Shown here: one piece after another, positions 19,361-32,128 of the stretch
How the letters are laid out: each line of letters opens with the position of its first letter
Numbering within the stretch: position 1 is the first letter of the stretch
Assembly: GCA_025359985.1 (NCBI GenBank)
Contig: JANYDB010000050.1
Coordinates: forward strand, 1-32,128
From: Burkholderiales bacterium
Lineage (GTDB): Bacteria; Pseudomonadota; Gammaproteobacteria; Burkholderiales; Usitatibacteraceae
Direction: 5' to 3'
Length of the DNA: 32,128 nucleotides
Position numbers and translations under genes: made by a program
Notes under the pieces: generated by a model
The model's database searches: none
The model's input: the letters and a program-made list of their open reading frames with translations, nothing else
Told to the model about the DNA's origin: nothing

Positions 19361-19582
19361 TCAGCAAAATCGAATGAAAATAAGTGATGCTAATAAGATG
19401 GAGATACCGTCTGAAATTTCAATGACAATGTTATTGCGGCGAGCAAGCAGAAGATAGGTCAGAATAACGCTTGATACAGCATAAGTGCCTTGATTAAAAG
19501 CAGCCGCTAGCAGCACCACAACAGCGCCATAGCAACAACAAAGCAACCGCAAGCCGCAGCACCCCAATACATAACATGACAT
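19361..19582 (-). CDS. Possible small cysteine-rich membrane protein
   Basis: A 73-codon open frame starting at the ATG at 19582, directly upstream of the ene-reductase gene and nearly touching the divergent hydrolase start at 19581. The protein has six cysteines in its first 17 residues (MSCYVLGCCGLRLLCCCYG), then a hydrophobic helix, a longer hydrophobic stretch (AVSSVILTYLLLA) and a final segment ISILLASLIFIRFC. I do not recognise it and see no strong ribosome-binding site. It could be a real small membrane protein, a decayed gene, or chance. Confidence 0.25.
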   Translation of the reverse strand: MSCYVLGCCGLRLLCCCYGAVVVLLAAAFNQGTYAVSSVILTYLLLARRNNIVIEISDGISILLASLIFIRFC

Positions 19583-20528
19583 GACACAACGCACCTCACT
19601 TACAGCACTGGACGATTGGAAGGCCCGTGGCCAATCATTTCGCTATCGCGGGCACCCCATATTTTTTACACGGGCTGAGAACCCGCATCGCGAAACGCTG
19701 CTATTGATTCATGGTTTCCCTACCGCATCATGGGATTGGTCGGCCGTGTGGGCGAAGCTGGCATCGCGTTTTCAATTGCTCGCGCCAGATTTAATCGGCT
19801 TTGGATTTTCCGCCAAGCCGCCGGATTATGATTACAGTATTCATGATCAAGCCAGCTTGTGCGAGGCGCTGCTGGTGCATGCAGGCGTTCGTGAATATCA
19901 TATTCTGGCCCACGACTACGGCGATACGGTCGCCCAGGAGTTACTGGCCCGCAGTCTGGAAGGAGGCCCTGGAGGTGGCTTGCGGCCGCGTTTAAAAAGC
20001 GTGTGTTTTTTAAACGGCGGATTGTTCCCCGAAACGCATCGGCCCCGCATGGCGCAGCGCTTATTGCAGAGCCCATTGGGGCCAATGATTGCGCGGATGA
20101 TCACCAAAGAAAAATTTGCGGCGAATATGATCGCCATTGCCGGCCCTGATTATCCACCGAGTAGCGTCGAGATCGATGGCTTCTGGGCGCTGATTGCGCA
20201 TAACGATGGACTCAAAATTTTTCCCAAGTTGATTGGTTACATGCGCGAGCGACGCCAACACCGTGCGCGCTGGGTAGGTGCGCTGGTGTCGTCCACGACA
20301 CACGCGACCATTCCATTGCGCCTGATTGATGGTGCGGCTGATCCGATTTCTGGCGAACACATGGCTGCCCGCTATCACCAACTGGTGCCGCATGCAGATT
20401 GCATTTTACTCAACGCTATTGGCCACTATCCACAGGTAGAAGTGCCGTCAATTGTCGCCGACATGGTGATTAATTTTCATGACACCCGCGTCAATCTCGC
20501 CACATTGAAACCGAAAATATCTGCATGA
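19581..20528 (+). CDS. Alpha/beta-fold hydrolase with aspartate nucleophile (epoxide hydrolase/dehalogenase-like)
   Basis: A 315-residue hydrolase. The oxyanion-hole motif is LLLIHGFPTASWDW. The nucleophile elbow is AHDYGDTVAQELL with Asp112 in place of serine, which puts it with epoxide hydrolases, haloalkane dehalogenases and the MEST-like group that share HDYG. The other triad members are probably Asp254 (DGAADPISGEH) and His282 (NAIGHYPQVEVP). There is no signal peptide. The substrate is unknown. The stop overlaps the start of the patatin gene (ATGA at 20525-20528), so the two are translationally coupled and probably work on related molecules. Confidence 0.85.
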   Translation: MTQRTSLTALDDWKARGQSFRYRGHPIFFTRAENPHRETLLLIHGFPTASWDWSAVWAKLASRFQLLAPDLIGFGFSAKPPDYDYSIHDQASLCEALLVHAGVREYHILAHDYGDTVAQELLARSLEGGPGGGLRPRLKSVCFLNGGLFPETHRPRMAQRLLQSPLGPMIARMITKEKFAANMIAIAGPDYPPSSVEIDGFWALIAHNDGLKIFPKLIGYMRERRQHRARWVGALVSSTTHATIPLRLIDGAADPISGEHMAARYHQLVPHADCILLNAIGHYPQVEVPSIVADMVINFHDTRVNLATLKPKISA

Positions 20529-21706
20529 GCAGCGCCATTGAGCTTCGTGCCGGGCCGCGTGCGATCGCGCATATTCGTGAGCATGGCTTACGCCCCCAGG
20601 ACATTGATATTATTCCCGGCGCAGCAGGCGGCCCCAAAGGATTGGGGCTCGCCAAGCTGGATGAGTGGCTGTTCGCCGACTTCCTGCCGCAGGGTTTTTC
20701 AAAGCGAAAAAATCCAACCCAACTGATCGGCGCATCCATCGGCGCATGGCGCTTTGCAGCGGTGTGTCGAGGCATGATTGACGGAAAATTTTCGGCTGAG
20801 GAAACCCGCAAAGCCCTGGCACTCTTTGCCCAAACCTATTGCGAAACCCGCTATGGCCTGAACGTTAGCGCGGCCGCTATTACCGACAGTGCGCGCCGCA
20901 TGATTGATCTGTTATTCGATGGGCAAGTTGCAAATGTGCTGGCCCATCCGCACTATCGTCTGAACGTACTCGCGGTGCGCGGCAAAGGTATTCTCGCCCG
21001 CGAACAGCGTGGCCGCACGCACGCGGGCTATGCACTCGCAGCGCTCGCCAACGCCGTAGGTCGCAAACACTTGCGACATTTTCTAGATCGCACCTGGTTC
21101 TATTCTGCATATGAAACTTCCCTATCTACGGGCGTTTCGGGGCAAAAATGGCCTGCAAGTACCGCCAATTCTAGTGTTTTAAATATGCAGCCGTTTTTTG
21201 CATCCCTAGAACTTGATCCGTTCCAGACTGAATATGCCGCCCTCACCGAGAAAAATTTTCGCGATGTGCTGATTGCCTCAGGCTCCATCCCGCTGGTGCT
21301 GGAAGGTGTAATGGGCATTGACGGCGCATCTGAAGGCACCTACTGGGATGGCGGCATCATCGACTATCATTTGCATCTGCCGTATGCGCACACTGAAGGT
21401 ATCGTGCTGTATCCCCACTTCACCAACAAGATCGTGCCAGGCTGGCTCGATAAAATGCTGCCCTGGCGCAAAGCCAAAGGCGCCTCGCTTGATAACGTCG
21501 TGCTGGTTTGCCCAAGCGCTGAATATCTGCAGCAACTCCCGATGAAAAAATTACCCGACCGCAACGATTTCAAACGCTTCGCCAACGACTACGAAGGCCG
21601 CCTGAAATACTGGCGATTCGCCATCGATGAAAGTGCACGCTTGCGGGATGAACTGGCCAGGTTGATTGAGAGCGGAGATATTGTCGGACGGTTGAAGCCG
21701 ATTTAG
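20525..21706 (+). CDS. Patatin-like phospholipase family protein
   Basis: A 393-residue protein with the patatin catalytic layout: the glycine-rich oxyanion motif GAAGGPKGLGLAKL near residue 33, the nucleophile Ser71 in GASIGAW (GxSxG), and Asp275 of the Ser-Asp dyad in YWDGGIIDYH (DGG motif). Patatin-like enzymes hydrolyse acyl ester bonds of lipids. There is no signal peptide or obvious membrane segment, so a cytoplasmic or membrane-peripheral place is likely. It is coupled to the hydrolase upstream by a 4-nt overlap. The sequence does not look like the short patatin effectors of CBASS, and no cyclase is nearby. Confidence 0.87.
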   Translation: MSSAIELRAGPRAIAHIREHGLRPQDIDIIPGAAGGPKGLGLAKLDEWLFADFLPQGFSKRKNPTQLIGASIGAWRFAAVCRGMIDGKFSAEETRKALALFAQTYCETRYGLNVSAAAITDSARRMIDLLFDGQVANVLAHPHYRLNVLAVRGKGILAREQRGRTHAGYALAALANAVGRKHLRHFLDRTWFYSAYETSLSTGVSGQKWPASTANSSVLNMQPFFASLELDPFQTEYAALTEKNFRDVLIASGSIPLVLEGVMGIDGASEGTYWDGGIIDYHLHLPYAHTEGIVLYPHFTNKIVPGWLDKMLPWRKAKGASLDNVVLVCPSAEYLQQLPMKKLPDRNDFKRFANDYEGRLKYWRFAIDESARLRDELARLIESGDIVGRLKPI

Positions 21707-21959: not shown

Positions 21960-22964
21960 ATGGATCTTTTTCATCGCATTAATCACTTCCATCACCTGCT
22001 CAGTGGCCGACGCCAACCCGCCTCCCGTGGATGGCTAGAACATGAATTGGGCTGTGGAACTTCTACCGTAAAACGCATCATTACTATCTTGCGCGGCTAC
22101 GGTGCAGTCATCGACTACGACAGAGAAAGTAATGGGTACACCTATAACCGCAGCGTTGCCTTTGAATTGCCCGGCATATGGTTTACCCATGACGAGCTGC
22201 TTGGCCTGATAACCGCACATGATTTGCTCGCCAGCGCCGAACCAGGTTTGCTAAACGACACACTGCAACCTATCCGCCAAAAACTGGATAAGTTATTACT
22301 TACCGAAAAACTGGGCGCTGGCGAATTGCCCAAACGCGTCCGCATATTAAGGCTGGCCGGACGCGGCGCAGGAAATTTTTTTGGCGAAGTGACGCGCGCA
22401 CTAGTGGAGCGCAAGCAATTACAATTTTCATACCATGCACGCACCACCGACGAAGACAAGATGAGAAAAGTATCGCCGCAGCGCCTCACTCACTATCGCG
22501 ACAACTGGTATCTGGATGCGTGGTGCCATGACCGCCGAGCACTCCGAAGCTTCGCCCTTGAGCGCATTCGTGAAGCACGCGTGAGCCGCTGGACCGCGCG
22601 TGACATTATTGAATCCAAACTTCACGAGCACTTTGCCAGCGCTTACGGCATCTTTGCCGGTAAACCTGTTGGCACTGCAAGGCTCATTTTCAGCGCACAC
22701 CGCGCACAATGGGTCAGCGAAGAAGAGTGGCACGCCAAGCAAATCGGCATATTTCTCGATGACGGCCGGTACCAACTCGACATCCCTTATTCAGATACGC
22801 GCGAACTGATGATGGACATTTTAAAGAACGGGCCAGATGTGGAAGTGGTCAGCCCGGCAGCCCTTCGAATTGAAGTTCAACAAAGGCTGGCTGCCAGCCT
22901 GCAACAATATGCAAATGCCCCAAACGCCGCGCCAAATATCGCGTTTGGCGGGGTCGTGGATTGA
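21960..22964 (+). CDS. HTH-WYL transcriptional regulator linked to the CRISPR-Cas operon
   Basis: A 334-residue regulator. Residues about 1-65 form a winged helix-turn-helix (HHLLSGRRQPASRGWLEHELGCGTSTVKRIITILRGYGAVIDYD). The WYL domain covers about residues 135-210, with LVERKQLQFSYHART, the W183-Y184-L185 triplet in DNWYLDAWCHD, and RSFALERI. A C-terminal extension domain follows (about 230-325). WYL domains are thought to bind nucleic acid or nucleotide ligands, and HTH-WYL proteins control several phage-defence operons and often sit beside type I CRISPR loci. AAGGA lies about 9 nt upstream of the ATG. It ends 63 bp before cas3 on the same strand, so it probably regulates the cas genes, most likely as a repressor, though this is inference. 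Confidence 0.88.
   Translation: MDLFHRINHFHHLLSGRRQPASRGWLEHELGCGTSTVKRIITILRGYGAVIDYDRESNGYTYNRSVAFELPGIWFTHDELLGLITAHDLLASAEPGLLNDTLQPIRQKLDKLLLTEKLGAGELPKRVRILRLAGRGAGNFFGEVTRALVERKQLQFSYHARTTDEDKMRKVSPQRLTHYRDNWYLDAWCHDRRALRSFALERIREARVSRWTARDIIESKLHEHFASAYGIFAGKPVGTARLIFSAHRAQWVSEEEWHAKQIGIFLDDGRYQLDIPYSDTRELMMDILKNGPDVEVVSPAALRIEVQQRLAASLQQYANAPNAAPNIAFGGVVD
22920..22948 (+). promoter_or_regulatory. Hairpin at the end of the WYL gene
   Basis: CCAAACGC (22920-22927) is a perfect inverted match to GCGTTTGG (22941-22948), with a second possible pairing CGCCAAA/TTTGGCG inside. It overlaps the last codons of the WYL gene and lacks a T-run, so it may only slow transcription or stabilise an mRNA end before cas3. 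Confidence 0.35.
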
Positions 22965-23027: not shown

Positions 23028-25307
23028 ATGGGAGAAAATAAAAAAGTGTTTTATGCTCACAGCGCGAACGGTAGCAATAAATGGCATCCGTTGTCGGAGC
23101 ATCTCACATGCGTTTCGCGTCTTGCATCAAAGTTTTCTGCTGCTACAGGTTGGGCAGACGAAGCGCGTCTAGCTGGCGTTCTGCATGACTTGGGAAAGTA
23201 CGGTGACCGTTTTCAAGCGCGACTAAACGGCGCGGATCAAGGCTTGGATCACTGGACACAAGGTGCGTCAGTCGCGCTTAACAAATTTAAGTCTGTAGCA
23301 GCGGCACTGGCGATTCAAGGTCATCACGTTGGTTTGCAACGCGGTATCAAAGACTCTTTATTACGGCTCATACCCACCAATATCTCTCAAGCTGTTTTGC
23401 CTAATTTGGACCTCAGTGACACAGACATAGAAAGACTGCAAACACGCGCGAATATAGACGGGCTTGAGTTCTCTAAACCCACATCTTTCGCAATAACTTC
23501 ATGGTCTAAAGCGGTTGCCGCCATGTTGGACGTGCGTCTACTTTTTTCGTGCCTGGTGGATGCCGACTTTCTTGATACTGAAGCGCATTTCAATGGTAAC
23601 GAAGAGGGCAAGCTCGCTCGCTTGCCTGGTCCCACATTGGATACCAGCGCAGCACTTGCTGCACTTGACAAACATATGACTGCATTGCGTGCTTCCGCGA
23701 ATGCGCATGGCAATGTGAACCAGGCCCGCGAAACCCTTTGGAGTTCGGTAACCAAAGCTAGTCAAGAGAATCGTCGCTTGTTTACGCTAACCGCGCCAAC
23801 AGGCTCAGGGAAGACGCTGGCGATGTTCAAATTCGCACTTGAGCACGCAAAAAAATACGGATTGAAACGGATTATCGTGGTTGTTCCCTTTTTAACGGTT
23901 ATTGAGCAGACTGCGCGCACTTATCGAAAAGTATTAGAAGGGTTTGAAGCAAACTTTGTATTGGAGCACCACAGTATGGCCGGGCTGGGGGTTGAAGCAG
24001 AGCAGCAGGATGCTGAAGGAGCGAACGAGCGTCAACGGCGTTTACTGGCTGATAACTGGGATGCGCCCATTGTGCTAACCACCAATGTTCAGTTACTGGA
24101 ATCGCTCTTTTCCAATCGGCCATCATCTTGTCGCAAACTGCACAATTTGATGGAGTCGGTCATTTTGTTTGACGAGGCGCAAAGCCTGCCAACCAATCTC
24201 GCCGTACCAACTTTGGCGGCGTTGTCGCATCTCAGCGCGTCTTATCAAACCAGCGTGGTGTTTGCGACGGCCACCCAGCCAGCATTCGATACTTTGCATG
24301 ACGAAGTTAAGAGTCATGCAATTCAGGGCTGGCAACCATATGAAGCCGTGCCCGAACACCCAGCGTTATTTGCTGCATTGGAACGTGTCACAGTCCGTTG
24401 GCCTGTAGTGAACGAAAAATATAACTGGAACCAACTTGCCAGTGAACTGCGCAACTCGTCACAGGTATTGATAATAGTCAATCTCAAACGCCACGCCCTC
24501 GCTCTGCTCGATGAGCTGAGCGAGATGGAAGGTGTGTTTCACCTCTCCACCAATCTGTGTGCAGAACACAGGCGCGCGATCTTGAATCGAGTACGAAAGC
24601 AACTCAAAACCGGTAAACCTTGTCGGCTAATCTCAACGCAGTGTATCGAGGCAGGCGTTGATCTGGATTTCCCAATCGTCTATCGCGCACTTGCGCCATT
24701 AGAAGGCATTGCGCAAGCGGCAGGACGCTGCAACCGCGAGGGTCGCTTGAACGAGAAAGGCATAGTGATCGTGTTCGAGCCGAATGAAAATGGAAACTGG
24801 CGACGACGCTACCCAACGCACTCTTACTATCAGGCGGCGGAAGTGACGCGGACAATGCTTATTCAGCATGGCAAACTTGATATTAACGATCCTGCGCTTT
24901 TCCGCGAATATTACCGGCGGCTTTATGATTTGAATGATCCTTCCAGTCAGAATCAAGCACTAAAAAAAGCAATAAAGGCTTTAGATTTTGTTGAAGTTGC
25001 GCGTTGTTATCGCATTATTGATCAAAACACCATACAAGTTTTAGTGCCGTGGGGAGATCGTTGGGAGGAGTTTGAGGCGTTACGAAGCGAAGCTGATCGT
25101 CATGGCATATCCGCAAACTGGATGCGGCGAGCACAAGGGTTGGCTGTTAGCGTCTATCGCACCAGTGACGGCACACCTGCTTGGGCGATCCCCGCAAAAC
25201 TTCGACGCGGTGGCGCCTCTAATGAATGGTTCATTCTTGAAGGTGACTTTTACGACGACACGCTAGGGCTGAACCCGCCCAAGGGCGAGCAGGTTTTTAT
25301 TGCATAA
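23028..25307 (+). CDS. cas3: Type I-C CRISPR-associated nuclease-helicase Cas3
   Basis: A 759-residue protein with an N-terminal HD nuclease domain followed by a superfamily 2 helicase. HD ligands visible are H25 region (WHPLSEHL), H53-D54 (GVLHDLGKYGDRF), and H99-H100 (IQGHHVG). The helicase has Walker A at residues 256-263 (APTGSGKT), Walker B DEAQ at 382-385 (VILFDEAQSLP), ATATQP (motif III), and motif VI-like QAAGRCNREG. Cas3 is recruited by target-bound Cascade and then unwinds and degrades the non-target strand. All motifs look intact. It is the first cas gene and lies 9 bp before cas5c, in the standard I-C order. Confidence 0.95.
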   Translation: MGENKKVFYAHSANGSNKWHPLSEHLTCVSRLASKFSAATGWADEARLAGVLHDLGKYGDRFQARLNGADQGLDHWTQGASVALNKFKSVAAALAIQGHHVGLQRGIKDSLLRLIPTNISQAVLPNLDLSDTDIERLQTRANIDGLEFSKPTSFAITSWSKAVAAMLDVRLLFSCLVDADFLDTEAHFNGNEEGKLARLPGPTLDTSAALAALDKHMTALRASANAHGNVNQARETLWSSVTKASQENRRLFTLTAPTGSGKTLAMFKFALEHAKKYGLKRIIVVVPFLTVIEQTARTYRKVLEGFEANFVLEHHSMAGLGVEAEQQDAEGANERQRRLLADNWDAPIVLTTNVQLLESLFSNRPSSCRKLHNLMESVILFDEAQSLPTNLAVPTLAALSHLSASYQTSVVFATATQPAFDTLHDEVKSHAIQGWQPYEAVPEHPALFAALERVTVRWPVVNEKYNWNQLASELRNSSQVLIIVNLKRHALALLDELSEMEGVFHLSTNLCAEHRRAILNRVRKQLKTGKPCRLISTQCIEAGVDLDFPIVYRALAPLEGIAQAAGRCNREGRLNEKGIVIVFEPNENGNWRRRYPTHSYYQAAEVTRTMLIQHGKLDINDPALFREYYRRLYDLNDPSSQNQALKKAIKALDFVEVARCYRIIDQNTIQVLVPWGDRWEEFEALRSEADRHGISANWMRRAQGLAVSVYRTSDGTPAWAIPAKLRRGGASNEWFILEGDFYDDTLGLNPPKGEQVFIA

Positions 25308-25316
25308 GGAGAACAT

Positions 25317-26069
25317 ATGTCCAATGGCACACATACATTAGAAGTCTGGGGTGATTTTGCTTGTTTCACTCGTCCCGAAATGAAGGTCGAGCGATTTTCA
25401 TATCCGATTATCACGCCATCGGCAGCACGCGGTATTTTTGATGCGATTTACTGGGATGGCCGTCGGGAAAAGCAGGGCACGGAAACAGTCATGCGCCCTT
25501 ATTTTCATTGGCAAGTTACACGTATCGAAGTGTTGGAGCTGCCGCGCTTCATCGCACTCCGACGAAATGAAGTGAAAGGTCGCGTCCCTGGATCAGTAAC
25601 GCTCAACAAATGGATGTCTGGCAAGGAGCATCCAGAACCGCTTTGGGCCGACGGTAATGACGAGAACACAGGGCGCACTCAGCGACAGACGATGGCTCTG
25701 AAAAATGTGCGCTACCGGCTTTCAGCGAAAATCGTTCCCAAGTCTGGTTTTGTAAATGATTATGGGAAATTTTGTAGCCAGTTCGAGCGTCGTGCAAAAC
25801 AGGGCAAATGCTTTCAACAACCGTACTTCGGCTGCCGAGAGTTTCCTGCGTTCTTTGAATATATTGAATCGTCTGATGCGAAAGTTTATTCGTCCATTGC
25901 AATGGATCAGCATTTTGGCCTCATGCTCTACGATGTTTTTGATTTGCGCAAAGAGGTTGTGAATGCAAACGAAAAACCGTTCATCACACTGTTTGACGCT
26001 CACATTCGCAACGGCATATTGGAAGTACCGTCGTTTGATAGTGTGGCGGTAAAGAAATCGGGGGGTTAG
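25317..26069 (+). CDS. cas5c: Type I-C Cas5 (Cas5c/Cas5d), crRNA-processing subunit
   Basis: A 250-residue RAMP protein. Type I-C systems lack Cas6, and Cas5c cuts the repeat RNA and then stays on the 5' handle in Cascade. The N-terminal signature LEVWGDFACFTRPEMKVERFSYPIITPSAARGIFDAIYWDG is characteristic of the I-C Cas5 family, as is CREFPAFFEY near residue 180. I cannot assign its catalytic residues with certainty from sequence alone. The ribosome-binding site is AAGGAG, about 6 nt before the ATG. It ends 5 bp before cas8c. No cas6 gene is found in the window, in agreement with Cas5c doing the processing. Confidence 0.94.
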   Translation: MSNGTHTLEVWGDFACFTRPEMKVERFSYPIITPSAARGIFDAIYWDGRREKQGTETVMRPYFHWQVTRIEVLELPRFIALRRNEVKGRVPGSVTLNKWMSGKEHPEPLWADGNDENTGRTQRQTMALKNVRYRLSAKIVPKSGFVNDYGKFCSQFERRAKQGKCFQQPYFGCREFPAFFEYIESSDAKVYSSIAMDQHFGLMLYDVFDLRKEVVNANEKPFITLFDAHIRNGILEVPSFDSVAVKKSGG

Positions 26070-26074
26070 TAACC

Positions 26075-27823
26075 ATGCTTCAAGCGCTGATGGAATATGG
26101 AAATGGCCTCGATTCTGAACCTGGGTTCAAAACTCGAGAAGTGCGCTGGTGTGTTGAACTTGACGCTGACGGCCGCTTTCTTAACGTATTGCCATTAGGC
26201 GATGGCAACCGTGGCGCAATGCATCATCGTTGCCCCGATATGCACGGGATGAATGCAGGCGGTAAGTCTCACTTTCTGGTGGAGACGGTTCAGACAGTTT
26301 TGCTTATGTTTAAGGCAAACGAGGAAACAATAAAAATTGCAGGTACCGCAGATAAACATAGTTTTTTTATTGCGATGCTTGGCAAAGCTGCCCATTCGTT
26401 CACGCAACTTAGCGCTTTAGTCAACGCACTCGGGAATGAGTCACAACTTTCAATTATTCGGGCTGCGCTTATTGAGAAAAAAGCCAAGCCTTCCGACTGG
26501 CTTTGTTTTCGGGTCGACGGCAAAGATCCACGCGAGGCCATTGCAGTTCAAGCGTGGTGGCGCGAATGGCGCAAGTCAGATATGGGCGGGGATAACATGC
26601 CCTCGACATCGACCAGCAACGGCGATATGGTCTGCTTTCTCACAGGCGAGGTAGCTCAGCCGCTGTTAACGCACCCAAAAATTACTGGGCTATCGGGCGT
26701 TGGCGGCTTGAGTATGGGCGACGTGATGGTTGGTTTCGACAAAGGTGCGTTTGGCTCATTCGGTTTAAAGCAATCCGCGAACGCTGCGATGAATGCCGAT
26801 GCAGCGCAGAAATATGTGGACGGCCTTAATGACTTAATTCGTAATCGCTCACGCAAGCTTGCCAATGCTCTGGTCGTTCACTGGTTCAAAGCGCAGGTCG
26901 CACTTGAGGATGATCCGCTGGAATGGCTACATGGCTTTGAGTCTCAGGAGCAAACAGAAGCCGCCGCCCAGATTGCATCACGTCAGCTACTTGATGCCAT
27001 TCGTACCGGCAAGCGTGCGGATTTAGGCAGCAACCATTACTACGCGCTTACCGTCTCTGGTGCGGCAGGTCGCGTGATGGTGCGTGACTGGATGGAAGGC
27101 AACTTTGAAGATTTGGTGTGTAATATCGAAGCGTGGTTCACTGACTTCGCCATTGTCGCTCGCGATGGCGTAGTGCAAGCTCGCGATCCTAAGTTCATGG
27201 CGGTATGCGGCGCGTTGGTTCGTGAACTCAAGGATTTGCCCGCTCCTACCGCCGCGACATTATGGAAAGTCGCCCTACAACGTCTGCCCATTCCGCAACC
27301 AATAATGGCTCAGGCACTCGCTCGTTTTCGTACCGATCTGGTCGACAAAGATCAGCCCCCATTTAACCATGCTCGCATGGGTCTTATCAAAGCGTATTTT
27401 GTTCGACTTAACTCAGGAGGAAACCAAACTATGACTGCGTATTTAAACCGCGAACACCCCGAACCCGCATATCACTGCGGGCGATTGCTCGCGATATTTT
27501 CTAACTTACAGTACGCGGCACTCGGCGATGTGGGTGCCGGTGTGGTGCAACGCTTCTATGCCGCTGCCAGCCAGACACCTGGATTGATTATTGGACGACT
27601 AACAAGCAACGCCCGTAATCATTTGGGGAAACTCGAGGGTGGGTTGGCGCACTGGTACGAAAACCAGATTGCCGATGTAATGGGGCGCTTGGGTGATGGC
27701 GCACCGCGCATTCTCGATCTAAACGGCCAAGGTCTCTTTGCCCTTGGCTATTACCAACAACTCGCCGCATTGCGTGAGGGTAAGAAAACAGACAACATTA
27801 CAAAACAAGGAGAAACAAAATGA
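26075..27823 (+). CDS. cas8c: Type I-C Cascade large subunit Cas8c
   Basis: A 582-residue protein (Csd1 family) that recognises the PAM and helps open target DNA. The N-terminal region [39 protein letters not shown] fits the family, as does [72 protein letters not shown] in abbreviated form (the start of the Csd1 core, from about residue 185). The last 130 residues are also translated alone as Cas11c (separate entry). Its stop overlaps the cas7c start (ATGA at 27820-27823). The G-run a few bases before the ATG at 26075 may serve as ribosome-binding site. Confidence 0.93.
27415..27420 (+). promoter_or_regulatory. Internal ribosome-binding site within cas8c
   Basis: AGGAGG inside the cas8c reading frame, 10 nt before an in-frame ATG at 27431. 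Such a perfect Shine-Dalgarno sequence inside a gene decides an internal start, here that of the small subunit Cas11c. Confidence 0.8.
27431..27823 (+). CDS. cas11c: Cas11c small subunit made from an internal start in cas8c
   Basis: The ATG at 27431 is in frame with cas8c (codon 453) and preceded by AGGAGG. It would give a 130-residue, mainly helical protein beginning [20 protein letters not shown] and identical to the Cas8c C-terminus. In type I-C systems studied experimentally, Cas11c is produced in exactly this way and is needed for a full Cascade, where two copies line the belly of the complex. The call rests on the start signal and on knowledge of the family; no separate gene for a small subunit exists here. 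Confidence 0.82.
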
Positions 27824-28797
27824 CCGCTATTCAGAACCGATATGAATTTCTTTATCTTTTTGATTGCGAAAATGGCAATCCGAACGGCGACCCGGATGCC
27901 GGGAATAGTCCGAGAATTGATCCGGAAGATATGCACGGATTAGTCTCAGACGTTGCCATCAAACGGCGGGTACGCAACTATATTCAGGCGGCTCATGGAA
28001 ATGAAGCACCGAATGCGATTTTTATTGAGCATTCAACTAATCTCAACAAGCAAATTGCGGCCGCACATGAGGCCACCAGCGGCGCACCCGCTGGTGGTGG
28101 AAATAGAGTGCAGGTTGGAAACGCTCGCGACTGGATGTGTCAGCAGTTTTTTGATGTCCGAACCTTTGGTGCAGTGATGTCAACTGGCGCAAACGCCGGA
28201 CAAGTGCGCGGCCCCGTTCAGGTGGCGTTTTCACGCTCAATTGATCCGATTTTGCCTATGGATGCTGCGATTACACGCATGGCTGTTGCCGAAAAAGTGC
28301 CTGGGGCCAAGACCAAAGCCGACTACGAAGAATGGGAAGGTAAGCAAGCCGAAGACTCATTGCGTACGATGGGACGGAAATCACTCATTCCATATGGTCT
28401 GTATGCGGTAAAAGGTTTCGTCTCTGCGAACCTTGCCAAAGGAACTGGGTTTTCCGACGCCGATCTCACTCTCTTGTGGGATGCGTTAAAAGGCATGTGG
28501 GACCACGACCGCTCGGCCAGCAAAGGCGTCATGTCATGCCGCGGGCTATATGTATTCAAGCATGTGGGCACCGATACTGACGCAGCTCAAAGAGTGCGTC
28601 AAGCGGTGCTGGGCTGCGCGCCGGCGCAGCGGCTGTTGGATTTCTCCGTACCTGACCGCAAGATCGAAAACTCAATTGTAGAAATCCAAAAGCGCGCAGG
28701 TTTTACAGGCTCTCCACGCGCATTTTCTGATTATGTTGTGATCGTCAATCGAGACCGGCTGCCCAAGGGCGTTGAATTAATTGAAACTGGTTTGTAA
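27820..28797 (+). CDS. cas7c: Type I-C Cas7 (Csd2), Cascade backbone subunit
   Basis: A 325-residue RAMP protein that polymerises along the crRNA spacer. Family hallmarks are [29 protein letters not shown] at the N-terminus, [50 protein letters not shown] near residue 105, and [19 protein letters not shown]. It overlaps cas8c by 4 nt and has its own strong ribosome-binding site (AAGGAG), which suits the high copy number of this subunit. A 51-bp gap separates it from cas4. Confidence 0.95.
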
Positions 28798-28848: not shown

Positions 28849-29475
28849 ATGAGTTCACTCCCCGAAGAGCCGATCATGCTTTCGGCGCTCAATCATTGGA
28901 GCTACTGTCCGCGCCGCTATTATTTGATACACGTTGAGGGCGAATTTGTTGACAATATTCATACCGCTCGCGGTAACGCTGAGCATCAGCGGGTGGATGA
29001 AATTCGTCATGAGACTTTGGGCGGGCGGCGTGTAGAAACAGCGCTACCAGTGTGGAGCGAGCGGCTTGGGTTGATCGGTAAATGTGATGTCGTGGAATTT
29101 TTTGCTGATGGAACGCCATATCCTGTGGAGTACAAACATGGCGCTCGAAAAAAATGGATTAACGATGATCTTCAGCTCGCCGCGCAAGCGCTATGCCTTG
29201 AAGAAATGACAGGCAAGGCAGTAGCCAATGGCGCGATTTATCATTTCACTTCGCGCAGGCGGCGCGAGGTAGCAATTAATGAAGCGCTGCGCGAACAATT
29301 GAAGATAACTGCCGCCACGATCCGTGAAACTACCCGTGCTGGAAAATTGCCAAAGCCGGTGAATGATAAGCGTTGCGATCAATGCTCAATGAATGAAGTT
29401 TGCCAGCCATCTGCAATAGATAATCATGCTCGGTGCGAAAACGCACACCGATTGCTTTTGCTGCAGGAGATTTAA
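28849..29475 (+). CDS. cas4: Cas4 exonuclease/adaptation protein (type I-C)
   Basis: A 208-residue RecB-like nuclease that selects and trims PAM-containing prespacers for Cas1-Cas2. The four iron-sulfur cysteines are C20 (HWSYCPRRYYL) and C176, C179, C185 (KRCDQCSMNEVC). The nuclease core shows KCDVVEF, PVEYKHG (catalytic Glu and Lys) and QLAAQALCLEEM. Nothing appears broken. In most I-C loci cas1 follows directly; here a 610-bp interval with a cas1 fragment and toxin-antitoxin remains lies between them. Confidence 0.94.
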   Translation: MSSLPEEPIMLSALNHWSYCPRRYYLIHVEGEFVDNIHTARGNAEHQRVDEIRHETLGGRRVETALPVWSERLGLIGKCDVVEFFADGTPYPVEYKHGARKKWINDDLQLAAQALCLEEMTGKAVANGAIYHFTSRRRREVAINEALREQLKITAATIRETTRAGKLPKPVNDKRCDQCSMNEVCQPSAIDNHARCENAHRLLLLQEI

Positions 29476-29487
29476 TTTAATCTAATC

Positions 29488-29571
29488 ATGCCGCAACATT
29501 TCAATACGTTCTACATCGCTGCGCACGAAGACGAAATGCGGTTGGAAAATGACACCTTATTTTTTGATTGA
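29488..29571 (+). pseudogene. Fragment of a cas1 5' end, stopped after 27 codons
   Basis: Starting at an ATG 12 bp after the cas4 stop, 27 codons read MPQHFNTFYIAAHEDEMRLE and then NDTLFFD before a TGA. Aligned without gaps to the intact cas1 start ([20 protein letters not shown] then NDTLRID), about 13 of 27 residues match. At the DNA level a 17-bp run (29542-29558 and 30140-30156) is identical and lies at the same distance (54 nt) from each ATG. The position right after cas4 is where cas1 normally begins. This looks like what is left of an older or different cas1. After the stop I find no convincing further Cas1 similarity in any frame. Confidence 0.7.
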
Positions 29572-29800
29572 GAGGGCATTAATATTGCTGTAGAGCGTGA
29601 TGCCGCAATCGAAGTGGGTCAGGTTCAAACGATAAGTTACAACGAATTTCTTTTGCGCACCAGCGGCGAACTTTGAAAGCATCTAGTTCCACAAGAGTTT
29701 TATTGCAACGAAGATGTGGCGGAGTGTAGTTGTTGCGGTGGGTGCTATGGTTGCTGTACCAACAGCGGCTTATGATATTTTTAAAGAGGGTGGGGAGCCA
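29572..29800. other. Unassigned stretch between the cas1 fragment and vapB
   Basis: About 230 bp without a recognised gene. The frame of the cas1 fragment stays open for a further 34 codons after its TGA (to 29676) but does not resemble Cas1. A TATGAT at 29771 and the GGGGAG before vapB suggest a vapB promoter and ribosome-binding site at its right end. Confidence 0.4.
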
Positions 29801-30031
29801 ATGAAATACGCCCGCATAATTGCAAGCGAGGCCGCTTCTCTTCCGTTAGGAAAACAGGCCGAGGTGATTAAATTCATTAAGTTTCTGAAAGCGAAGCAAT
29901 GTCGCAAGGAAGTGATTTCAGCACCTGTTTCGGCATTCATGTCATTGGCAGAAATTAAAGCATTCTTTGGCCGCTTTAAAGTCGATACGAGCAACTTCAA
30001 ATTTCACCGTGATGAAGCCAATGCGCGCTAA
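29801..30031 (+). CDS. VapB/DUF2281-like antitoxin
   Basis: A 76-residue protein starting at the ATG at 29801, with GGGGAG 7 nt upstream; a longer in-frame reading from 29714 adds an unlikely hydrophobic leader. The N-terminal part (ARIIASEAASLPLGKQAEVIKFIKFLKAKQ) matches the 'LP...Q.EV..FI.FLK.K' pattern of DUF2281/VapB-type antitoxins, and the C-terminal half (SLAEIKAFFGRFKVDTSNFKFHRDEANAR) would be the toxin-binding tail. Its 3' end overlaps the start of a PIN-domain toxin fragment, the normal vapB-vapC arrangement. The antitoxin seems complete although its toxin is not. It lies within the cas operon, between cas4 and cas1. Confidence 0.65.
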   Translation: MKYARIIASEAASLPLGKQAEVIKFIKFLKAKQCRKEVISAPVSAFMSLAEIKAFFGRFKVDTSNFKFHRDEANAR

Positions 30032-30083
30032 GGTGCTCATTGATACGAATATCGTTACCCATGCTCGCGGAGACGCAATTTAG
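30012..30083 (+). pseudogene. Truncated VapC (PIN-domain) toxin
   Basis: An open frame of 23 codons, MKPMRAKVLIDTNIVTHARG then DAI and a TAG stop. KVLIDTN is the first strand and first catalytic aspartate of PIN-domain ribonucleases, which normally have about 130 residues. The start (30012 or 30021) overlaps the vapB end, as usual. The frame stops 2 bp before the cas1 ATG, so at least 80% of the toxin is missing and it cannot be active. The deletion end point coincides with the cas1 start, and a GGAGA in this remnant may now serve as a weak cas1 ribosome-binding site. Confidence 0.68.
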
Positions 30084-30085
30084 CC

Positions 30086-31120
30086 ATGCGACAACTTCTC
30101 AACACCCTTTATATAACAATACCCAAAGCCTATGCGCACTTGGAAAATGACACCTTGAGGATTGATGTCGAGCGCGAAAAAAAGCTTGCCGTACCGCTAC
30201 ATCATCTAGGTGGCGTGGTTTGCTTTGGCAATATTATGGTGTCACCTGCGCTTATGCATCGGCTGGCTGAAGAAGGGAAGTCGCTGGTGTTGCTAGATGG
30301 CAACGGCCGTTTCAAAGCGCGACTCGAAGGTCCAACCTCGGGCAACGTGTTGTTGCGGCAGGCACAGCACAAGGCAGCGGGGGAACCGGCTCAAACACTA
30401 GCACTGGCGCGGAGTTTCATTGCGGGTAAGTTAAAAAATAGCCGTCAAATATTGCTGCGTGGCGCGCGTGACAATACTGACGTCACCGAGCAAGAAGAAT
30501 TAAAACGTGTGGGTGAAAATCTGAATGCTTCGCTGCGTGCGTTGGCGAACGCAAATGATCTGGATACGCTACGCGGTGTGGAAGGTGAAGCCGCTCGCGG
30601 CTATTTCGGCGCACTCAATTTGCTGGTGAAAAAAGATGCTCGCGAACATTTTCAGATGGATGGTCGCAGCAAGCGCCCGCCGCGTGATCGCATGAATGCT
30701 CTCCTGTCTTTTTTATATTCGATGCTCACCAATGATTGCCGCTCGGCTATTGAAAGCGTGGGCCTTGATCCGCAGCTTGGTTTTTTACACGCAGTGCGGC
30801 CAGGACGTGCCGCACTGGCGCTCGATTTAGTAGAGGAATTTCGCGCCTTTATTGCAGATCGTCTGGCGCTTTCGCTGGTGAATCGCGGGCAGATTGTGGC
30901 CGACGATTTTGAATTTCGCGAAGGCGGCTCAGTACAACTGGCGGATGATGCTCGCCGTACACTGGTGGTTGCCTTTCAGGAACGCAAGCAGGAAGAAATC
31001 ACGCATCCGCTACTGGAGCAAAAAATGCCTTTGGGCCTTGTGCCGCTGCTGCAAGCCCGATTTATCGCCCGCACATTACGCGGCGAAATGGAAGGCTATG
31101 TGCCGTTTCTGGTGCGCTAA
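30086..31120 (+). CDS. cas1: CRISPR-associated integrase Cas1 (type I-C)
   Basis: A 344-residue protein that inserts new spacers into the array together with Cas2. The N-terminal beta domain ([34 protein letters not shown]) is followed by the helical catalytic domain. Metal ligands are E168 ([12 protein letters not shown]), H235 ([21 protein letters not shown]) and D247/E250. All look intact, as do length and ending. The gene is preceded by the vapC remnant instead of cas4. A cas1 fragment upstream differs in about half of its residues, so this copy may have been acquired separately. Confidence 0.95.
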
Positions 31121-31139: not shown

Positions 31140-31430
31140 ATGCTGATCTTGGTCGCTTATGATGTTTCTACTCTTACCAAACAAGGTGCACGTCGACTAC
31201 GCCGTGTGGCGAAAGTCTGCGAGAGTACTGGCCAGCGCGTGCAAAATTCCGTATTTGAATGTGAAGTGAATCAAATGCAATATGAAGAACTGGAACGCCG
31301 GTTGCTCGCTGAGATTGACGAAAAAGAAGACTGTCTTCGACTCTATCGCCTCACCGAACCTGTTGAGCAGCGCATCAAACAATACGGCACCTATCGCTCG
31401 GTCGATTTTGGTGGCCCGCTCGTTATTTAG
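31140..31430 (+). CDS. cas2: Cas2 adaptation protein
   Basis: A 96-residue ferredoxin-fold protein that forms the central dimer of the Cas1-Cas2 integrase. It begins [20 protein letters not shown] with the conserved aspartate D8, and continues [23 protein letters not shown], which is typical of Cas2. Its end [15 protein letters not shown] carries the short C-terminal tail seen in type I-C Cas2 proteins. It starts 19 bp after cas1 and is the last cas gene before the leader. Confidence 0.94.
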
Positions 31431-31621: not shown

Positions 31622-32128
31622 GTTGCGCCCACGCTCACGCGTGGGCGAGGATTGAAACATAACACCTGGGCGGCCTAAAACAGTTACGCGCCGTTGCGCC
31701 CACGCTCACGCGTGGGCGAGGATTGAAACAGATGAAGACCAGTCCGCATTTGAGGCCGCCAACGTTGCGCCCACGCTCACGCGTGGGCGAGGATTGAAAC
31801 TCGCCACGACCGGCGCAAATGCGTTTTTGTTCAAGTTGCGCCCACGCTCACGCGTGGGCGAGGATTGAAACATTTTGGGGCTGCTTAATTCGAGCATCGT
31901 GTCGCGTTGCGCCCACGCTCACGCGTGGGCGAGGATTGAAACTTGTCCTGCACCAATCCCCACGCGCCGCCAGCGGAGTTGCGCCCACGCTCACGCGTGG
32001 GCGAGGATTGAAACTTCGCTGGGCAGCACGCCCTTTGGCCATTCTCGACGTTGCGCCCACGCTCACGCGTGGGCGAGGATTGAAACGATCACCTTCCAGC
32101 GCGTGCGCCAATTCGTGCAGGTTGCGCC
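31622..32128 (+). CRISPR. Type I-C CRISPR array, seven full repeats, continues past the window
   Basis: Seven identical 37-bp repeats start at 31622, 31693, 31764, 31835, 31906, 31978 and 32050; the first 8 bp of an eighth are at 32121-32128. Spacers are 34, 34, 34, 34, 35, 35 and 34 bp and all differ. Each repeat starts GTTG, contains a perfect 9-bp stem (CGCCCACGC, loop TCAC, GCGTGGGCG) and ends AGGATTGAAAC, the 11-nt handle that Cas5c leaves on crRNAs. The ATTGAAAC end and the leader next to cas2 set the direction to plus. No repeat shows decay, as expected at the leader end, where the newest spacers lie. Total array size is unknown. Confidence 0.98.

Follow-up and report, generated by a model that had tools for sequence, protein, structure and literature searches.

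A decayed cas1 start behind cas4 as a probable scar of one-sided recombination at a type I-C CRISPR-Cas seam that also holds toxin-antitoxin genes

In the type I-C CRISPR-Cas operon of a Burkholderiales bacterium, cas4 is directly followed by a short, decayed cas1 start, in addition to the intact cas1 further downstream. We consider it likely that this ghost was left as a scar when a one-sided, illegitimate recombination took place at the seam between cas4 and cas1, which would have brought in a toxin-antitoxin (TA) pair and probably cas1-cas2. The ghost is homologous to cas1, a TA remnant lies beside it, the same seam is used repeatedly in other loci, fresher scars of this shape occur there, and the gene trees of the operon disagree. 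The window, i.e. the whole stretch of 32,128 nucleotides that was analysed, ends with a complete operon in the order Cas3-Cas5c-Cas8c-Cas7-Cas4-Cas1c-Cas2, in which all seven proteins (7/7) scored over the NCBIfam cut-off. Its features are as follows.

23028-25307, plus strand: cas3 (NCBIfam cas3_core and cas3_HD, over cut-off)
25317-26069, plus strand: cas5c (TIGR01876, over cut-off)
26075-27823, plus strand: cas8c (TIGR01863, over cut-off)
27820-28797, plus strand: cas7 (Csd2; TIGR02589, over cut-off)
28849-29475, plus strand: cas4 (TIGR00372, over cut-off; its tree position is close to cas4 genes from loci sharing the window's cas8/cas7)
29488-29568, plus strand: cas1 ghost, the first 27 codons, decayed (nhmmer E 2.8e-7; 52/81 nt to the window's own cas1)
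29569-29800, no strand: stretch between ghost and antitoxin (weak gapped cas1 similarity up to about 29616)
29801-30031, plus strand: antitoxin ORF, 76 aa, DUF2281/VapB-like (DNA match to the L142 pair)
30012-30083, plus strand: PIN-domain toxin stump, 23 codons (overlap and start as in the L142 PIN protein)
30086-31120, plus strand: intact cas1 (Cas1c; TIGR03640, 507.6 bits, over cut-off)
31140-31430, plus strand: cas2 (TIGR01573, over cut-off)
31622-32128, no strand: CRISPR array with repeat GTTGCGCCCACGCTCACGCGTGGGCGAGGATTGAAAC, adjoining the operon and running past the window end

As the initial annotation had placed it, the ghost starts at 29488, 12 bp past the end of cas4, and the start of the intact cas1 (30086) follows 598 bp further downstream; the entire gap between cas4 and cas1 (29475 to 30086) measures 610 bp. 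The gap-free match to the N-terminus of the window's own cas1, put at about 13 of 27 residues, was confirmed at 13/27 residues and 52/81 bases, and the exact 17-bp run at the same offset from both ATGs is present. When all 3,600 start codons of the window on both strands were ranked, the ghost came second only to cas1 itself in similarity to the cas1 N-terminus (13 residues, the next one reaching 8). A DNA profile of the cas1 starts of other loci, built without the window's own sequence, found it as the second-best match in the window (nhmmer E 2.8e-7, model positions 1-80), and a protein profile of cas1 starts detected it with an E-value of 4e-4 over six frames, so that the significant match to Cas1 implied by the original reading does exist. 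Its score was reached by none of 1000 mononucleotide shuffles of 90 bases (0/1000). Chance similarity is thus out on the start-codon ranking, the profile E-values and the shuffles. A Pfam scan of the ghost, with X at stops, returned 0 families. Beyond codon 27, weak, gapped similarity to cas1 continues as far as about codon 36, and the interval 29567-29800 gave no convincing match among the loci compared, the best being 15 bp in one other locus (E 0.62).

Two simple accounts of the ghost could be discarded. The 17-bp run had been put forward as a possible recombination point; since 42 out of 2,224 pairs of cas1 starts with comparable identity contain a run of at least 17 bp, it is unremarkable by itself, and we dropped this idea. 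A recent tandem duplication is rejected by the DNA identity of 64%. It had been dismissed before on a protein identity of about 50%, and this argument is weak because the start of a pseudogene decays freely. That the ghost is instead an old tandem duplicate of cas1 that decayed by ordinary drift, with the TA pair inserted independently, seems improbable to us. Mismatches between ghost and cas1 are spread across the codon positions (9, 8 and 12), as such decay would predict, but 11% of functional pairs are equally even. Remains of the rest of cas1, past the first codons, were not recognised between the ghost and the antitoxin, and in two other loci, L005 and L087, scars and cargo occur together at this seam.

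Between the ghost and cas1 lies a decayed TA module (29801-30083) that was overlooked in the initial annotation. Its antitoxin ORF (76 residues, with a longer open frame from 29714) overlaps at its end the PIN toxin stump, which stops 2 bp before cas1. The interval 29801-30055 matches an antitoxin-toxin pair of locus L142 over 258 bp with 70% DNA identity (E 1.7e-25). In L142, a 72-residue antitoxin overlaps a full-length PIN protein of 137 residues in the same arrangement, and the pair sits between cas7 and cas4. An intact toxin is absent from the window module, where a stump of 23 codons remains that gave no family match of its own. The antitoxin itself scored below the family cut-offs, both for TA_VapB of NCBIfam (E 0.0025, 18.3 bits against a cut-off of 60) and for Pfam DUF2281 (E 0.066, 14.3 against 26.5). 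Among the annotated slots, the same antitoxin family was found outside the window only upstream of cas4, between cas7 and cas4, in L138, L142 and L145. The DUF2281-PIN antitoxin family is rare elsewhere, with matches in 2 of 99 other relatives' genomes (100 searched, the window's own included).

For comparison, 30 type I-C cas1 loci were collected by similarity (L002-L031, picked by likeness to the window's Cas1). A family search then covered 369 genomes of the class, 398 of the phylum and 399 of the order, of which 47, 26 and 42 matched, the window's included; the class search used a looser limit than the other two. From this survey 96 regions were taken, and 17 class matches below the family cut-off were left out. 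The surveyed genomes belong to the window's phylum, and the named relatives are mostly Pseudomonadota. Overall, 127 loci including the window were compared, 124 of them with cas4 upstream of cas1; the other three (L018, L030 and L107), in which cas4 is absent from this position, were excluded from the counts. Final counts also drop the duplicates L143, L150 and L171 and the broken-cas1 loci L134 and L174. None of 12 same-genus genomes (0/12) matched the window Cas1, and no insert-free sister locus was found among them. A plasmid search returned three distant records, matching cas1 alone. In L078/L107, an I-C cas1 match contains one in-frame TAG, and no cas4 was recognised upstream.

The spacing seen in the window is not the usual one. 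Rather than the same spacing in most loci together with congruent trees, the picture that would speak against the initial interpretation, we found cas4 and cas1 at -20 to 34 bp from each other in 98 of the 124 loci, at 178-1,838 bp in 25 and at -334 in one broken locus. This also bears on the idea that the short ORF is a functional leader peptide or coupling element for cas1, which we regard as very unlikely: the ATG is kept 12 bp past cas4 and 27 codons are open, but 98 of 124 loci have no room for such an element, and the profile found nothing similar in 90 slot interiors except the scars described below. An insert longer than 100 bp separated cas4 from cas1 in 24 of 119 type I-C loci, and cas7 from cas4 in 60 of 113. 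Such inserts were absent between cas5 and cas8 (0/83), cas8 and cas7 (0/102), and cas1 and cas2 (0/113), and the difference in frequency between the cas4-cas1 and cas1-cas2 junctions is significant (Fisher p 4e-8). The only inserts between cas1 and cas2 were those of L134 and L174 (2/118 before both broken loci were removed); L174 presumably holds transposase pieces. The family survey alone (L079-L174) gave inserts in 18/90 loci between cas4 and cas1 and in 42/87 between cas7 and cas4. On the Cas1 tree, the inserts between cas4 and cas1 and between cas7 and cas4 require at least 16 and at least 19 changes of state, respectively; at both seams they have therefore been gained or lost many times.

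TA families were found in 14 of the 24 cas4-cas1 inserts and in 51 of the 60 cas7-cas4 inserts, so that one or both seams hold them in 58 of 119 loci; the window is counted among the 24 and among the 14. The remaining junctions of the same operons served as control. Labels were assigned from 25 seed proteins taken from slots and spread by two rounds of tblastn. Of these seeds, 21 scored over the Pfam cut-off, three scored under it (DUF2281, one ParE-like and MqsA-like), and one without a family match we take to be HicB. We also assume that DUF433, DUF5615, DUF4258, PIN and MNT-HEPN proteins are members of TA pairs. With a strict count, limited to Pfam descriptions naming a toxin, antitoxin or addiction, the numbers were 10/24, 41/60 and 46/119 loci. 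The cas4-cas1 cargo comprises RHH with PemK/MazF, Phd with PIN, MazE-like with PIN, Unstab_antitox with ParE, and MNT with HEPN, and the cas7-cas4 cargo HicA with HicB-like, ParE with Unstab_antitox, DUF433 with DUF5615, DUF2281 with PIN, and others. A HicA remnant lies within the 178-bp gap of L089. Further cargo includes BRO-N proteins (PDC-S13, a PADLOC candidate), an AbiP2-type reverse transcriptase, an Nmad2 protein and a PIN_12 protein.

Some inserts deserve separate mention. In L010, L011, L141 and L173, an RHH-MazF pair lies on the minus strand between cas4 and cas1, ending in the cas4 tail and starting at most about 50 bp from cas1; because of this position, a divergent TA promoter may drive cas1-cas2 in these loci. 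Six loci with one genus code (L154, L155, L156, L158, L162 and L163; f44, g47) have related cas1 genes and differing cas4-cas1 cargo, namely PIN_12, a small protein, Nmad2-like (two), an AbiP2-like reverse transcriptase and an unknown protein of 585 aa. The cas7-cas4 interval of L022, L024, L096, L145 and L147 contains an ORF of about 730-800 aa, which looks to us like a relocated cas3.

Fresher scars were found at the cas4-cas1 seam of two loci. L005 has the order cas4, RHH-MazF, 184 bp of a cas1 start (91% identical to its own cas1), a cas4 tail, Phd-PIN and cas1. The 1,164 bp that begin with the cas4 tail match L006 at 90%, and the two parts have about 10 bp in common at the join. RHH-MazF at this seam is also carried by L011, and the stub is nearest to L011 (170/184), followed by its own cas1 (167/184) and L006 (160), with a small margin. 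Judged from these similarities, L005 seems to combine an L011-like with an L006-like locus, spliced within cas1. L087 has the order cas4, 34 bp, 20 bp of a cas1 start, MNT-HEPN, a cas4 remnant and cas1; in the remnant, the N-terminus of another cas4 is fused to the tail of a cas4. L083, which is 92% like L087 on both sides, has just 34 bp and no insert at the seam. About 115 bp of the resident junction are found on both flanks of the L087 insert, and the downstream cas1 is the resident's.

When the cas1-start profile was run over 90 slot interiors, five gave E-values below 0.02: L005, L174 (its own interrupted cas1), the window, L087 (0.018) and L093 (0.019). The last is a reverse-strand match that we took for chance; because the profile value of L087 is no better, the scar in L087 rests on the comparison with L083. 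In L152, a possible stub lies right behind cas4 and before MNT-HEPN (37 bp, 76%, E 0.002; profile E 0.63). When each locus was searched by blastn with the start of its own cas1, short matches also turned up where no scar is expected. The best of these, 28 bp at 89% identity in L092 (E 1.5e-5), lies in mid-cargo; its blastn E-value is as good as that of the window's 17 bp (3.3e-5), and the profile scan did not pick it up. We count three of the 24 cas4-cas1 inserts (window, L005 and L087) as solid cas1-start scars.

The initial annotation had predicted discordant trees, and this was borne out. We built quick trees and selected a group of eight loci from the BLAST ranks of Cas8, Cas7 and Cas5. 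In the Cas8 and Cas7 trees (102 rows), the window groups with L005, L082, L009, L089, L095, L159 and L167 (support 100). In the case of Cas4, the smallest firm set contains the same eight and L013 (99 and 98), and a clade of the eight is not rejected (p 0.38). Cas1 (38 rows), in contrast, rejects this clade (AU p 5.5e-7). In the Cas1 tree, the window stands alone on a long branch (0.34-0.4), for which reason no donor lineage was identified. Pairs of loci show the same break: between L167 and L170, which have one genus code, Cas1 is 94% identical, Cas8 29% and Cas4 75%; between L005 and L006, the values are 94%, 31% and 72%, and between L009 and L002, 94%, 28% and 69%. L168 and L170 are alike in Cas8 (68%), Cas4 (95%) and Cas1 (94%).

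Across 85 loci, the agreement of tree distances was 0.95 for Cas7-Cas8, 0.89 for Cas1-Cas2, 0.78 for Cas4-Cas1, 0.25 for Cas1-Cas8 and 0.19 for Cas4-Cas8. Since Cas4 distances track Cas1 and not Cas8, the cas7-cas4 seam is the common exchange point. The window's group appears as the exception: here cas4 accompanies cas8/cas7, and the break falls at cas4 or behind it. Both exchange seams are sites where cargo sits.

The events at the window's seam may be pictured as follows. One end of the incoming DNA would have joined by homologous recombination in cas1 or cas4, and the other by an illegitimate join just inside the start of the resident cas1. The incoming DNA would have contained the DUF2281-PIN pair and probably the cas1-cas2 of another I-C locus, so that a stub of the resident cas1 was left behind cas4 and the TA pair was placed in the seam. 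An extra copy of cas1 or cas4 could have been brought along and the spare lost later. A subsequent loss between the antitoxin and the new cas1 would have removed most of the toxin and, if brought along, the second cas4, after which the stub and the TA pair decayed, leaving what the window retains: stub, antitoxin and toxin stump. We infer from the present arrangement the order of these events, the joint arrival of cas1-cas2 with the TA pair and the deletion of a second cas4. Homology-facilitated illegitimate recombination, in which partial duplications result from the combination of a homologous with an illegitimate join, is known from transformation experiments, and the partial duplications in L005 and L087 resemble its products.

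Two versions of this event differ in the origin of the present cas1, and we regard it as about evenly balanced whether cas1-cas2 arrived with the TA pair or the resident cas1 stayed with a duplicated junction. In the latter, which we hold to be a real possibility short of probable, the TA pair was inserted into the seam without any foreign cas1, and the ghost is a duplicate of the beginning of the cas1 present today. Of 115 cas1 genes, that of the window itself resembles the ghost most (52/81 nt, 13 aa), which favours the duplicated junction over replacement and is at odds with the earlier expectation that the ghost would group with the cas1 of loci sharing its cas4. The likelihood placement is of little help here, as 81 bp are too short to place the ghost firmly: it gave the position as sister to the own cas1 weights of 0.01 and 0.03, and the best placements 0.08 and 0.20. 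L087, with its junction on both sides and a cas1 that is the resident's (92% to L083), demonstrates such a duplication, and a ghost therefore does not require replacement of cas1. On the other hand, the window's cas4-cas1 gap showed no duplicate of the cas4 end, and a separate event would be needed for the discordance of Cas1 with Cas4, Cas7 and Cas8.

That discordance is what speaks for replacement of the adaptation genes, in which the ghost would be what is left of the original cas1, while cas1-cas2 as now present would have come from another I-C locus together with the TA pair and a cas4 since lost. We consider this, too, quite conceivable while stopping short of calling it probable. The closest Cas2 (81%) is that of L142, a locus with the TA family upstream of cas4, and the Cas1 of L142 is among the nearest by path; by BLAST bits, however, L142 takes rank 22 for Cas1, and the cas1 of L145, with the same TA family, belongs to another clade. 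The L005 ghost is nearer to L011 than to its own cas1, but by the small margin given above, and the window ghost behaves in the opposite way. In addition, the seven partner loci differ among themselves in Cas1, which falls into several clades. Thus, the original proposal that a different cas1 had been brought in agrees with the trees but is not tied to the ghost, for which a duplicated junction gives the same picture.

In excerpts of two studies, effector and adaptation genes of CRISPR-Cas loci are described as recombining freely (PMC5704561, PMC12669027); the 2025 classification estimates swaps between cas1 and effector genes (PMC12669027), and according to the phylogenomics of Cas4, cas4 moves almost exclusively with the adaptation module (PMC5704561). 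The low agreement of Cas1 and Cas8 distances in our loci (0.25) is in line with this module exchange. Unlike what PMC5704561 reports in those excerpts, the cas4 of the window's group appears to travel with cas8/cas7 and not with the adaptation module; if true, this qualifies the published claim. Scars and cargo at the module break are not described in the excerpts of either paper, and TA cargo in I-C loci is not mentioned in those of PMC12669027. Exchange of CRISPR modules has mostly been inferred from trees, whereas here the joins themselves are legible, fresh in L005 and L087 and fossil in the window. Module swapping inside an operon is now testable, and so is the idea that addiction genes keep CRISPR loci in genomes.

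TA cargo at both cas4 seams is the wider pattern and, in our view, more interesting than the ghost itself. Its recurrence may be explained by the exchange of modules at these sites and by the difficulty of losing addiction genes. Makarova et al (2006; PMC1462988) listed HicB, PIN, COG2442 and AbrB/MazE as genes 'loosely associated' with cas genes. These are similar kinds of TA genes near cas genes; the part of that paper considered makes no link to a seam, a frequency or recombination, whereas in our loci both TA partners are present in many cases. TA systems have been treated as ancestors or guards of CRISPR-Cas, and in the excerpts of these papers not at such seams (PMC6452270, PMC8730458, PMC3150331). 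A 2025 review of TA and CRISPR (PMC12737573) contains neither cas4 nor type I-C. Among the matches listed in the open full-text literature, subscription papers and preprints aside, TA pairs at these seams were not reported in titles or in the opening lines of abstracts, and the passages returned for HicA, cas4, cas7, TA and CRISPR together, or for 'between cas4 and cas1', held no report of such a seam.

CreTA, too, is a TA pair within a cas locus and could keep the locus from being lost (PMC8730458, PMC9458426, PMC10097628). As far as the excerpts describe it, CreTA consists of RNA and is held down by Cascade (PMC8730458), while the pairs at the seams are proteins with no known link to Cascade. 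As a tentative extension, which we would sooner doubt than assert, the seams beside cas4 might be recurrent docking sites where TA pairs ride with swapped modules and stabilise the operon, with ghosts as fossil joins. If so, the pairs at the seams would be a protein counterpart of CreTA. The cargo, if our reading of it is true, also qualifies the published claim that immunity loci lack typical antitoxins. In the excerpt of PMC6519985, Cas4 and Cas1 are reported to bind each other, so that splitting cas4 from cas1 is also a functional question.

Upstream of the operon, a gene for a protein with a WYL/WCX domain (21960-22964) lies immediately 5' of cas3 on the same strand and perhaps encodes a regulator of the operon. 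Further 5', a gene for a patatin-like phospholipase (20525-21706) lies next to one for an alpha/beta hydrolase (19581-20528).
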